From: Phaeobacter sp. J2-8
GTDB taxonomy: Bacteria; Pseudomonadota; Alphaproteobacteria; Rhodobacterales; Rhodobacteraceae
Assembly: GCF_022867865.1 (NCBI RefSeq)
Contig: NZ_JALIEC010000002.1
Span: 124,001-188,000 of the forward strand
Reading direction: 5' to 3'
Length of the DNA: 64,000 nucleotides
The number at the start of each line of letters is the position of its first letter. Within the stretch, counting starts at the first letter, position 1. The notes under the pieces were generated by a model that saw only the letters and a list, made by a program, of their open reading frames with translations, searched no databases and was not told the origin of the DNA. Position numbers and translations under genes: made by a program. This document shows, piece after piece, positions 52,888-55,581 of the stretch.

Positions 52888-54438
52888 TCACCGCCCCTTG
52901 AACAATCCCCCCAGGATGCCGCGCACGATGCGCCGTCCTGTGGTGCCCTTCAGCTCCTTGATCACCACTTTGGTCATCGCCTCGCCAAAGCTTTCTTCCC
53001 GGCGCGACCGGGTTCTGGGGCGGGATGTGGAACGGGACACGCGTTTGCCGGAATAACGTCGGGCGGATCGGTATTCCCGTTCTGCCACTTCCTCGGCCTC
53101 GTCCTCGGCACGCTCTGCGGCTTCTGCGGCCTGAGCGGCATCCTTGGCCCGTTGCGTCAGGATTTCATAGGCTGACACCCGATCCTGTGGCTGGTCATAT
53201 TTCCCGGACACAGGTGATTGCGCCATCACCGCGCGCCGCGCCTCGGCGCTCAATGGTCCCAGCTGGGACGACGGTGGACGGATCAGAGTGCGTTCCGCCA
53301 TCCCCGGCACGCCCTTTTTCTGCAACATCGAGGTCACAGCCTCGCCGACACCAACCTCGCGGATTGCCTGTTCGATGTCGAACCTGGGATTGTCACGATA
53401 GGTTTCCGCCGCCAGGCGCAGCGCCTTGCGATCGCGGGCGGTAAAGGCACGCAGCGCATGTTGCACCCGGTTGCCCAGCTGCCCCAGAATATCCTCTGGC
53501 ACGTCATCGGGGTTCTGGGTGATGAAATACACCCCGACCCCCTTGGACCGGATCAGGCGCGCCACCTGTTCCACCTTGTCGACCAGCGCATCCGGCGCGC
53601 CATCAAACAGCAAATGCGCCTCATCAAAGAAAAAAACCAGCTTTGGTTTGTCGGGGTCACCGACCTCCGGCAGGGTCTCGAACAATTCTGACAACAGCCA
53701 CAAAAGGAACGTCGCATAGAGCCGTGGCGACGCCATCAACGTATCCGCCGCCAGAATATTGATCCGCCCGCGCCCATCGGCATCGACCTGCATCAGATCA
53801 TCCAGCTCCAGTGCCGGCTCTCCGAACAGGCCAGCGCCGCCCTGATTTTCCAGCACCAACAACCGCCGTTGAATTGCCCCGATCGAAGCGGTGGAAATAT
53901 TGCCATAGCGCAGCGACAGCGCCTTGCGGCTCTCTCCGACCCAGACCAGCAGGGATTGCAGATCTTTCAGATCCAGCAGGGGCAGACCCTGTTCATCCGC
54001 CAGCCGAAAAGCGATGTTCAACACGCCTTCCTGCGCTTCGCTTAATTCCAGTAGACGGGCGATCAGCAAGGGCCCCATGTCAGACACTGTCGTGCGCACC
54101 GGGTGCCCCTGTTTGCCAAACAGATCCCAGAACGTGACCGGAAAAGCCGCATAAGTGTAGTCGTCAAAACCGATCTTGGCCGCGCGCTGGGCAAAGGCAT
54201 CGTGCAATTTGAAATCCGCCCGTCCCGCCGCCGCAAGCCCCGACAGGTCGCCTTTGACATCAGACAGAAACACCGGCACGCCGGCCTTGGAAAACCCCTC
54301 GGCGAGGATTTGCAGCGTCACGGTTTTCCCGGTGCCGGTGGCCCCGGCAATCAGCCCATGTCGATTGGCATATTTCAGCGACAGCTCCTGTGCCTCGCCA
54401 TACTCTGGCCCGCCGCCACCAATGAATATCCCCGCCAT
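52888..54438 (-). CDS. HerA-like ATPase, DUF853/YjgR family
   Basis: The 516-residue P-loop ATPase has Walker [13 protein letters not shown] (about 31-42), [14 protein letters not shown], Walker [13 protein letters not shown] and the arginine-containing [23 protein letters not shown] segment. The C-terminal 90 residues form a charged coiled-coil and Arg/Ser-rich tail ending in a conserved [15 protein letters not shown]. The family is widespread and its role is not established. The start at 54438 has GGAGGGG eight bases upstream; an ATG eight codons further up is less likely. It converges on livM. Confidence 0.9.
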
Positions 54439-54498
54439 GGGCCCCTCCGACTCTCTCATCATAGGCGATCGGGATACGTCCCGCGTCGCAATCTCGGC

Positions 54499-54526
54499 TT
54501 AACCTTTGTCTGTCATACCATGTAAT
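54499..54526 (+). promoter_or_regulatory. Candidate promoter of the small RNA
   Basis: TTAACC (54499-54504), a 16-base spacer and TGTAAT (54521-54526, one mismatch from TATAAT). Transcription would start near 54533. Confidence 0.4.
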
Positions 54527-54532
54527 GTCCAG

Positions 54533-54609
54533 CGTTCGGGCCTTGTCCGGGGCTGGATTGACTTCCTCCCTGTCAGACTGGCCGCGCCCCTCCCGGTGCG
54601 GCCTTTTTT
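54533..54609 (+). ncRNA. Predicted small RNA with two anti-Shine-Dalgarno loops
   Basis: A plus-strand intrinsic terminator (GGCCGC 54580-54585 with GCGGCC 54598-54603, then six T) has no gene in front of it. The preceding 50 bases fold into a hairpin whose ten-pair stem (54553-54562 with 54572-54581, one mismatch and G-U pairs) presents the loop TTCCTCCCT. The loop of the terminator stem contains CCCCTCCC. Two hairpins exposing CUCCC is the hallmark of alphaproteobacterial alpha-r14/cuckoo-type small RNAs, which bind ribosome sites or act as sponges. Length would be about 77 bases. The 5' end is inferred. Confidence 0.5.
54580..54609 (+). terminator. Intrinsic terminator of the predicted small RNA
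   Basis: GGCCGC and GCGGCC flank a 12-base loop and are followed by TTTTTT. No protein gene reads into it on this strand. Confidence 0.85.
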
Positions 54610-54638
54610 CAAATGATGGTTCCGGAGCCATGGAAACC

Positions 54639-54648: not shown

Positions 54649-54756
54649 CATCATTCCGGGTGAAAAATTATAACTTGGCTGTTGACCGGCGGCAAAAATG
54701 TTCGTAGCGTCCCGTCAATGACTAAGTCGGCCAGTCCGACGGGGAGCAAAAAAATA

Positions 54757-54789
54757 GGAAAAGGGGTCGATTACTCGGCCCCTTTTTCC
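54757..54789. terminator. Bidirectional intrinsic terminator, orphan
   Basis: GGAAAAGGGG (54757-54766) pairs with CCCCTTTTTCC (54779-54789). The plus strand has its T-run within the right arm; on the minus strand the stem is followed by TATTTTTTT. No gene is seen on either side close enough to explain it. Confidence 0.75.
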
Positions 54790-54969
54790 AATTGTGGCAA
54801 GGGTTTGCCGGTCAGCTTTGCCATGTCGTTGACAGTCCTTCACGGAAAAATGCACCATGGGAACGGCCCGCAATCGGACAATCCGCCTGACAGCGGCAAT
54901 CAACCATGTTAAGCGCAGCGGGCGAATGCGGCGCATGCATTCAGACAAGTGTTAACAAAGGGGGGTGTG

Positions 54970-55581
54970 ATGCCCAAATTTCTTTCTTTACTGCCTTTTA
55001 TTGCCCTGATGGCCCTGACCGCGCCGGCAGCCGCCCAGGACGCAGCTGCTGAAGAAACGCCCGCCGAAGGCGCTGCTGGCAGCTCGATCGAGGATCAGTT
55101 GGCCGTGGGCCAAGAGGCAACCGAACTTGGCAGCACCTATGTCAAACAGGAAAGCGGCGACTGGGAATTGCGCTGCATCCGGACCGAGACCCCGGAAAAC
55201 GACCCCTGCCAGCTGTATCAATTGCTGAAAGAAGAAAACGGCAATGCGCTGGCCGAAATTTCGATGTTCCGCCTGCCGGCCGAGAGCAAGCTGCCCGCCG
55301 GTGCGACCGTGATCGTGCCGCTGGAAACGCTGCTGACGGGTCAGTTGGGGATTTCTGTGGATGGGTCCAAGCCCAAAAGCTATCCGTTTTCCTTCTGCAA
55401 CCGCCAGGGATGTTACGCCCGCATCGGTTTGACCGCAGAAGACATTGCCGCCTTCAAACGTGGCGCCGAAGCCAAGGTGATGATCCGCCCCTTCGCGGCA
55501 CCGGATCAGATCGTGGCCTCGACCATGTCGCTGTCTGGCTTCACAGCCGGTTTCGAATTGGCCAGCGTGCTTCAGCAATAA
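54970..55581 (+). CDS. Invasion-associated locus B (IalB) family protein
   Basis: The 203-residue periplasmic protein has a signal peptide (MPKFLSLLPFIALMALTAPAAAQ) and an acidic Ala/Glu linker before the IalB core (GDWELRCIRTETPENDPCQLYQLL, SYPFSFCNRQGCYARIGL) with four conserved cysteines. The family is common in alphaproteobacteria, mostly free-living; the name does not imply virulence here. The start at 54970 has a GGGGGTG site. It is monocistronic, with a terminator 26 bases after the stop. Confidence 0.9.
   Translation: MPKFLSLLPFIALMALTAPAAAQDAAAEETPAEGAAGSSIEDQLAVGQEATELGSTYVKQESGDWELRCIRTETPENDPCQLYQLLKEENGNALAEISMFRLPAESKLPAGATVIVPLETLLTGQLGISVDGSKPKSYPFSFCNRQGCYARIGLTAEDIAAFKRGAEAKVMIRPFAAPDQIVASTMSLSGFTAGFELASVLQQ

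Follow-up and report, generated by a model that had tools for sequence, protein, structure and literature searches.

The window, i.e., the whole 64-kb stretch of DNA analyzed, carries in the gap between a HerA-like gene (minus strand) and an ialB gene (plus strand) the gene of a predicted small RNA, sRNA1 (about 54527-54609, plus strand). It is accompanied by a second conserved sRNA gene, sRNA2 (54717-54787), which was overlooked in the earlier note on this DNA. The features of the locus are as follows:

52888..54462, minus strand: HerA-like ATPase gene, the divergent upstream neighbor (PF05872 HerA_C, 741 bits)
54499..54519, plus strand: sRNA1 upstream block TTAACCTTT...TGTCATACC, extended -10-like with embedded TTAACC (conservation)
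54527..54609, plus strand: sRNA1, predicted SorX/SorY-like small RNA gene with 5' hairpin, core and terminator (folding, conservation)
54562..54585, plus strand: sRNA1 core CTTCCTCCCTGTCAGACTGGCCGC (alignment; CCTCCCTGT invariant in 30 sequences, from loci chosen by a pattern containing CTCCCTGT)
54580..54609, plus strand: sRNA1 intrinsic terminator, its loop CUCCC unconserved (terminator scan, compensatory changes)
54682..54710, plus strand: sRNA2 promoter-like element TTGACC-N17-TAGCGT (TTGAC-N16..19-TnnnnT in 120/123 loci)
about 54717..54787, plus strand: sRNA2, conserved predicted small RNA gene (model R1: 81.7 bits)
54726..54740, plus strand: sRNA2 5' stem-loop GUCGG-CCAGU-CCGAC (comparison of relatives)
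54733..54746, plus strand: sRNA2 pairing core AGTCCGACGGGGAG with Shine-Dalgarno-like GGGGAG at its 3' end (complementarity)
54758..54787, plus strand: sRNA2 intrinsic-terminator-like hairpin, U-run paired with A-run (comparison of relatives)
54970..55581 (ORF 54949-55581), plus strand: ialB-like gene, 3' of sRNA2 (PF06776 IalB, 121 bits)

The longest ORF of the ialB-like gene begins from GTG at 54949, and its likely start is ATG at 54970. Among 30 loci with about 1.5-kb flanks, own locus counted, the HerA-like gene is found 5' of sRNA2 in 29 and ialB 3' of it in all 30. A promoter-like element, YTGACA-N15..18-TR, is present 5' of ialB (window 54850-54970) and in 37 of the 48 loci with enough sequence; it is probably the promoter of ialB.

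Anatomy and conservation of sRNA1 and sRNA2

The strong plus-strand terminator that the earlier note had described at a place where no protein gene ends was confirmed (stem 54580-54603 with 9 pairs, loop CCUCCC, T6). The RNA of about 77 bases from 54533 that it had proposed has to be extended: the 5' hairpin begins at about 54527 and would be cut by a start at 54533, so sRNA1 is probably about 83 nt long. The fold of 54520-54615 has a z score of -4.2, with 0/200 shuffles equally stable, and that of 54533-54610 a z score of -2.2, with 4/200. We infer the start of sRNA1 from the conservation of the upstream block, the consensus of which is about A-ATACA-CTTAACC-TTT-TG-CCA-T; the window itself has a C in place of the final T of the -10-like hexamer. 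TTAA occurs 40-110 nt 5' of the sRNA1 core in 90/94 loci and TTAACC in 64/94 (background rate of TTAACC, 0.049 per 70 nt, about 5%), and the frequencies at the TG..A....T positions of the block are G 0.93, A 0.94 and T 0.87 (n=90). We read the block as an extended -10 element that has TTAACC embedded in it and would act as a promoter; a simple consensus scan for promoters did not list one on the plus strand at sRNA1. In the window, an alternative start near 54533 is possible from TTAACC-N16-TGTAAT (54499-54526). The TTAACC at 54499-54504 lies inside the presumed sRNA1 promoter, and CtrA would be a candidate for its regulator.

The sRNA1 stretch was matched by blastn in 25/61 genomes, own genome counted. 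The alignment of 23 relatives with the window comprises the promoter-like block, a variable 5' region, the core CTTCCTCCCTGTCAGACTGGCC and the terminator, and both the CUUCCUCCCUGUCAGACUGGCC core and the terminator recur in the relatives. Among 123 chosen sRNA2 loci, sRNA1 was found by a strict pattern, which itself demands CTCCCTGT, in 94, in a diverged form in 13, and not at all in 16. The loci with no sRNA1 core in the 450 nt upstream of sRNA2 are L109, L110, L127, L128, L130, L146, L150, L157, L160, L161, L189, L192, L196, L199, L201 and L208; sRNA1 seems to have been lost there or never to have been present. The 5' hairpin has a mean z score of -2.75, with 89% of values below -1 (N=94). 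The RNAalifold structure of 30 sRNA1 sequences consists of the terminator only, the 5' part being too variable in position to yield a consensus structure. At 5/9 stem pairs of the terminator, both bases have changed in a compensatory way in one or more of these sequences.

The earlier proposal of an orphan gene for an sRNA whose core resembles an anti-Shine-Dalgarno sequence is thus backed by conservation. The proposed architecture, with CUCCC exposed in two hairpin loops, was not upheld in the same way. CUCCC in the terminator loop was found in 1/94 loci, namely in the window only, and is therefore probably incidental. The sequence of the other loop, TTCCTCCCT, held good as part of the core recurring in the 23 aligned relatives, but the weak GAC/GTC stem that would close it forms its full set of three pairs in no more than 47/94 loci. 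We regard the core rather as a linker that joins two hairpins. Given both counts, the two-loop picture differs from the conserved anatomy. Within the 64-kb window, copies of the complement of the sRNA1 core are not enriched (9, one of them sRNA1's own, vs 14.7 expected).

The elements of sRNA2 are arranged in the order of a TTGAC element, the GUCGG-CCAGU-CCGAC stem-loop, RGGGAG, an A-rich spacer and the terminator-like hairpin. In the first comparison, each of the 24 loci, that of the window among them, has this block on the same strand as sRNA1, about 140 nt 3' of its core (98-348 nt, with a median of 137). A covariance model, R1, built from 23 sequences, with 7/15 pairs in which one or more sequences have both bases changed, detected sRNA2 in 262/295 family genomes, mostly in a single copy. 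In a class-wide sample there were matches in 10/289 genomes, 4 inside the family and 6 outside; the six, at 26.9-30.1 bits, were rejected, the core being absent on both strands. Simple consensus scans listed neither the promoter nor the terminator of sRNA2. The patAB (54748-54797, minus strand; 24.2 bits, cut-off 92) and sraA (54720-54794, plus strand; 18.2 bits, cut-off 56) matches, which are weak and rest on its terminator hairpin, were rejected as identities of sRNA2. A minus-strand sRNA in its place was rejected as well: the terminator scan listed no minus-strand terminator nearby, and the plus-strand promoter-like element is conserved.

A pair of sRNA1 (core CUUCCUCCCUGAACUGGACUGGCC) and sRNA2, located through the sRNA2 match, is present between catalase and IalB genes in R. 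sphaeroides (genome G078, taken as strain 2.4.1 because SorX and SorY fall at their published positions). On chromosome 1 of that strain, the pair would map to around 1,426,530-1,426,780, minus strand. At this locus (L136, G078:C4), the catalase gene and a divergent LysR-family gene stand upstream in place of a HerA-like gene, and ialB is kept downstream; a search of this genome for a HerA-like protein found nothing. We take the catalase to be RSP_2779 and the divergent LysR-family gene to be that of OxyR, and the published sRNA UdsE would therefore probably be sRNA2, possibly sRNA1, or else neither of them. By its name and neighbors, i.e., a place between catalase and ialB with a LysR-family gene divergent to catalase, UdsE/RSs2778 probably lies in the same intergenic region as the pair. 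As far as the source describes it, RSs2778, renamed UdsE, is a 5'-UTR-derived RNA with a predicted TSS at its 5' end that was validated by Northern blotting and responds to both RNase E and PNPase; it is ascribed no function there (PMC8625941). The intergenic sRNA 134 of Paracoccus, as outlined in its source, may be a counterpart of sRNA1 or sRNA2 (PMC5107571). In the accessible passages of a Ruegeria sRNA paper, IalB is absent, and the two passages on 'invasion' are about ibeA (PMC4809877).

Relationship of sRNA1 to SorX and SorY

No Rfam family matched at gathering scores in the whole 64 kb. The best family on sRNA1 was SorX (RF02784), with 29.6 bits (E 4e-5) and a cut-off of 46.6. According to the earlier note, alpha-r14/cuckoo RNAs expose CUCCC in two hairpin loops, and sRNA1 could belong to them as a diverged member; in the covariance-model search, alpha-r14 (RF02344) gave 14.9 bits (E 2.2, cut-off 58.8), and SorX outscored it by 14.7 bits on the same stretch. 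The further suggestion of CcsR found no echo in the search, as no CcsR family was among the 12 Rfam matches up to E 5. SorY (RF02651) gave 15.0 bits, and mmgR/suhB alpha-R8 (RF00519) 16.7 bits vs a gathering score of 41 (27.4 in L118). With such weak scores, alpha-r14, SorY and mmgR were rejected as the family of sRNA1. In place of the alpha-R8/MmgR 10-mer UUUCCUCCCU, sRNA1 carries CUUCCUCCCU, which is identical to it at 9/10 positions.

Like SorX, sRNA1 has a CUCCCUGU core followed by GGAC/AGAC, a 5' hairpin and a GGCC-rich terminator, so the traits of the sibling group (5' hairpin, CUCCCUGU core, terminator) are all found in it. The core reads CUCCCUGUCAGAC in sRNA1 vs CUCCCUGUUGGAC in SorX, and has GUUGGAC or GUCGGAC in some relatives. 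In contrast to sRNA1, SorX is described as a product of the 3' UTR of an ompR-type mRNA, released by processing with RNase E, and in R. sphaeroides it follows ompR-1 (PMC6238624, PMC8625941). sRNA1 is an orphan gene that stays below the SorX cut-off in a genome where a true SorX is also present; being flanked by HerA-like and ialB genes, it lacks the SorX trait of a 3'-UTR-derived RNA behind an ompR-type gene. SorY, reported to be transcribed from its own promoter (PMC6238624), differs from sRNA1 in that its model gives only the above 15.0 bits there, and a separate SorY-like copy exists in the genome.

The SorX model matches 283/295 family genomes at E <=0.01, 232 of them above the cut-off, often in several places. 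The true SorX of the window's own genome (C15:84784-84855, 77.7 bits) follows, at a distance of about 60 nt, an ORF of the OmpR type with Response_reg and Trans_reg_C domains. The SorY-like copy (G000:C10:18686-18751, L087, minus strand) scores 50.7 bits with SorY (cut-off 111) and 44.6 with SorX; the two Rfam families, to which Rfam gives no clan, overlap there on one RNA with a common core. SorY has CUCCCUGUUGGA in common with SorX, as seen in R. sphaeroides, where both are at their published positions. On account of this shared sequence and of the model matches, we call SorX, SorY and sRNA1 siblings, and since a true SorX and a SorY-like copy are present elsewhere in the genome, the best-supported class for sRNA1, at the level of sequence, is that of a third sibling beside them.

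Complementarity of sRNA2 to SorX, SorY and sRNA1

The sRNA2 core, AGUCCGACRGGGAG, complements CUCCCUGUYGGACU. With G-U pairs allowed, it pairs with CUCCCUGUUGGAC(U), i.e., CTCCCTGTTGGAC(T), in both SorX and SorY; its complementarity to sRNA1 includes one mismatch. A contiguous complement of 13-20 nt to the sRNA2 consensus was found in 53 of 56 SorX-model loci, which are the best matches of the model, and the core is already a part of that model; the exceptions are L084 and L085, which are sRNA1-type loci (9 nt), and L073, the core of which was unread. In the window's own genome, the longest unbroken complement to sRNA2 was 15 nt in SorX and 14 nt in SorY, lengths reached by 0/4000 and 4/4000 dinucleotide shuffles of both partners, respectively. 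For sRNA1, a run of 16 with one mismatch allowed was reached by 9/4000 shuffles, and its unbroken run of 9 was no better than chance (947/4000). The negative control, a weak SorX-model match without the core (G000:C10:43389-43460, 26.3 bits), had a longest run of 8, reached by 1020/4000 shuffles.

The gain in energy upon co-folding with sRNA2 was -14.9 kcal/mol for sRNA1, -18.7 for SorX, -17.4 for SorY and -6.9 for the control. When loops were allowed in energy-based shuffles, the observed values were reached by 181 (sRNA1), 86 (SorX) and 40 (SorY) of 3000, so the pairing signal by energy in this single genome is weak; this test is the weaker one because GC-rich RNAs make strong looped duplexes by chance. 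A shuffle of full-length duplexes was set aside, as it was dominated by terminator GC. Cognate sRNA1/sRNA2 pairs scored slightly better than permuted ones (mean -36.11 vs -35.92, p 0.001; 94 pairs, phylogeny uncontrolled). Their longest unbroken run is 9-10 in 82/94, and the interruption is mostly due to an A standing opposite C. Compensated double changes were found in L202 (CUGACC with GGUCAG), in L118 (CUUGCC with GGCAAG) and, with a one-base bulge, in L103 (CUUGCC with GGCAAAG); in the second half of the helix, 13/94 pairs changed without compensation vs these 3 compensated.

In the seed of sRNA2, the Gs facing C are invariant at 4/5 positions (123/123 each), and the As facing U drift to G. 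Of 106 departures from the consensus, 99 preserve pairing; most are transitions, which preserve pairs automatically, and the pattern is therefore support rather than proof. sRNA2 is present in 260/283 genomes with a SorX-model match vs 2/12 without one (Fisher 4e-9, phylogeny uncontrolled). In the remaining 23/283, sRNA2 was undetected by the model; G004 was counted as lacking it, yet its core is present there by pattern, so model misses exist. Extended complementarity to the partner seed, a trait of RNA sponges, is thus found in sRNA2, more weakly when judged by energy.

A possible sponge and its alternatives

The adjoining genes of sRNA1 and sRNA2 may form one module. sRNA1 would join the Hfq-type stress sRNAs SorX/SorY as their third sibling, with its 5' hairpin, a CUUCCUCCCUGUCAGACU core able to pair with Shine-Dalgarno regions, and its terminator, and would presumably repress mRNA translation. 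sRNA2 would be a sponge with its own transcription, apart from sRNA1, in which the GGGGAG toehold and the 5' stem-loop mimic the type of sequence bound by the siblings. As a copy of their kind of target, it would pair with their common core, through 13-20 contiguous nt in the case of SorX/SorY and through 16 pairs with one mismatch in the case of sRNA1, and could either pull the siblings off their mRNAs or trigger their decay. Because the sRNA2 core complements SorX, SorY and sRNA1, sRNA2 probably mops them up, and its function as a sponge for these siblings is the reading to which we give somewhat better than an even chance. At the sequence level, it is supported by the conservation of both genes, by the signals resembling promoters and terminators at each of them, and by a complementarity that is itself conserved. 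As sRNA1 is absent in 16/123 sRNA2 loci, sRNA2 is not bound to sRNA1 alone, and its survival there without detected sRNA1 is what one would expect if it served the whole group as a sponge and not sRNA1 only.

Reported targets are potA for SorX, which inhibits its translation (PMC9438474), and takP for SorY, which affects its mRNA (PMC6238624), as far as these sources describe. A broader proposal, which we hold tentatively and rate at a little under even, is that one sponge mimicking a ribosome-binding site, family-wide and encoded next to a client of its own, determines how much of SorX, SorY and sRNA1 is free. If so, it would tie the control of polyamine and metabolite transport together in oxidative stress. 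SorX and SorY would then be siblings under one sponge and not separate regulators, the sponge would be conserved in most sampled genomes of Rhodobacteraceae, UdsE/RSs2778 of R. sphaeroides would acquire a testable role, and the control of anti-Shine-Dalgarno sRNAs would become a directly testable question.

The main rival to the sponge is that sRNA2 is the prematurely terminated leader of ialB, with the siblings binding GGGGAG and the stem-loop and altering termination or RNase E cleavage, so that ialB would be the regulated gene. We consider this unlikely, though far from negligible. It would agree with the position of ialB 3' of sRNA2 in 30/30 loci and in R. sphaeroides, and with UdsE/RSs2778, probably the same locus, being 5'-UTR-derived in a study that describes RT-PCR for sRNA-mRNA co-transcripts (PMC8625941). 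However, a terminator-like hairpin separates sRNA2 from ialB in the window and in relatives, the promoter-like YTGACA-N15..18-TR precedes ialB in 37/48 loci, and the complementarity fits the whole sibling group, as a sponge requires. The roles could also be reversed, with sRNA2 regulating mRNAs and sRNA1 as its decoy. The 16/123 loci that keep sRNA2 without detected sRNA1 speak for such a reversal, which is nonetheless improbable, since the sources cited above describe SorX and SorY, whose core is the same, as regulators of mRNAs, and the sRNA2 core looks like a ribosome-binding site, not like an anti-Shine-Dalgarno seed.

Two other explanations concern sRNA1 itself. The proposal of the earlier note, by which it would be an alpha-r14 (cuckoo) RNA that has diverged, is in our view very improbable: its CCUCCC-containing core between hairpins and a weak ar14 alignment recall that family, but the score (14.9 bits vs 58.8, E 2.2) is surpassed by that of SorX by 14.7 bits, and the second CUCCC loop is unconserved. 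It is hardly credible that there is no functional RNA and that a terminator merely coincides with chance C-rich loops. The plus-strand promoter is indeed absent from the list of the consensus scan, but the promoter-like block, core, 5' hairpin and terminator are kept in 94 genomes of about 90 genera.

Among the open-access papers listed in our literature searches, none describes a sponge of SorX/SorY or the sRNA1/sRNA2 pair in its title or at the beginning of its abstract. StsR/UpsM of R. sphaeroides, set beside sRNA2 by its description only, is likewise a case of an sRNA targeting another sRNA, but with another partner and with no adjacent gene pair in the accessible descriptions (PMC8307010, PMC11354728). 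Another likeness, again by description, is that of Caulobacter CrfA, reported to sponge the four alpha-R8 (MmgR) sRNAs SisA-D via their UUUCCUCCCU core (PMC12559287). In both cases there are sibling sRNAs with a single-stranded core and a terminator, which one RNA with a G/A-rich stem-loop antagonizes in Caulobacter, as far as that source describes it (PMC12559287), and would antagonize here. Unlike CrfA, sRNA2 adjoins one of the siblings, and its pairing runs 3' into CUGUYGGACU. By this analogy, sRNA2 most likely acts as CrfA does on SisA-D, and it would then be a counterpart of the CrfA/SisA-D system beyond Caulobacterales.
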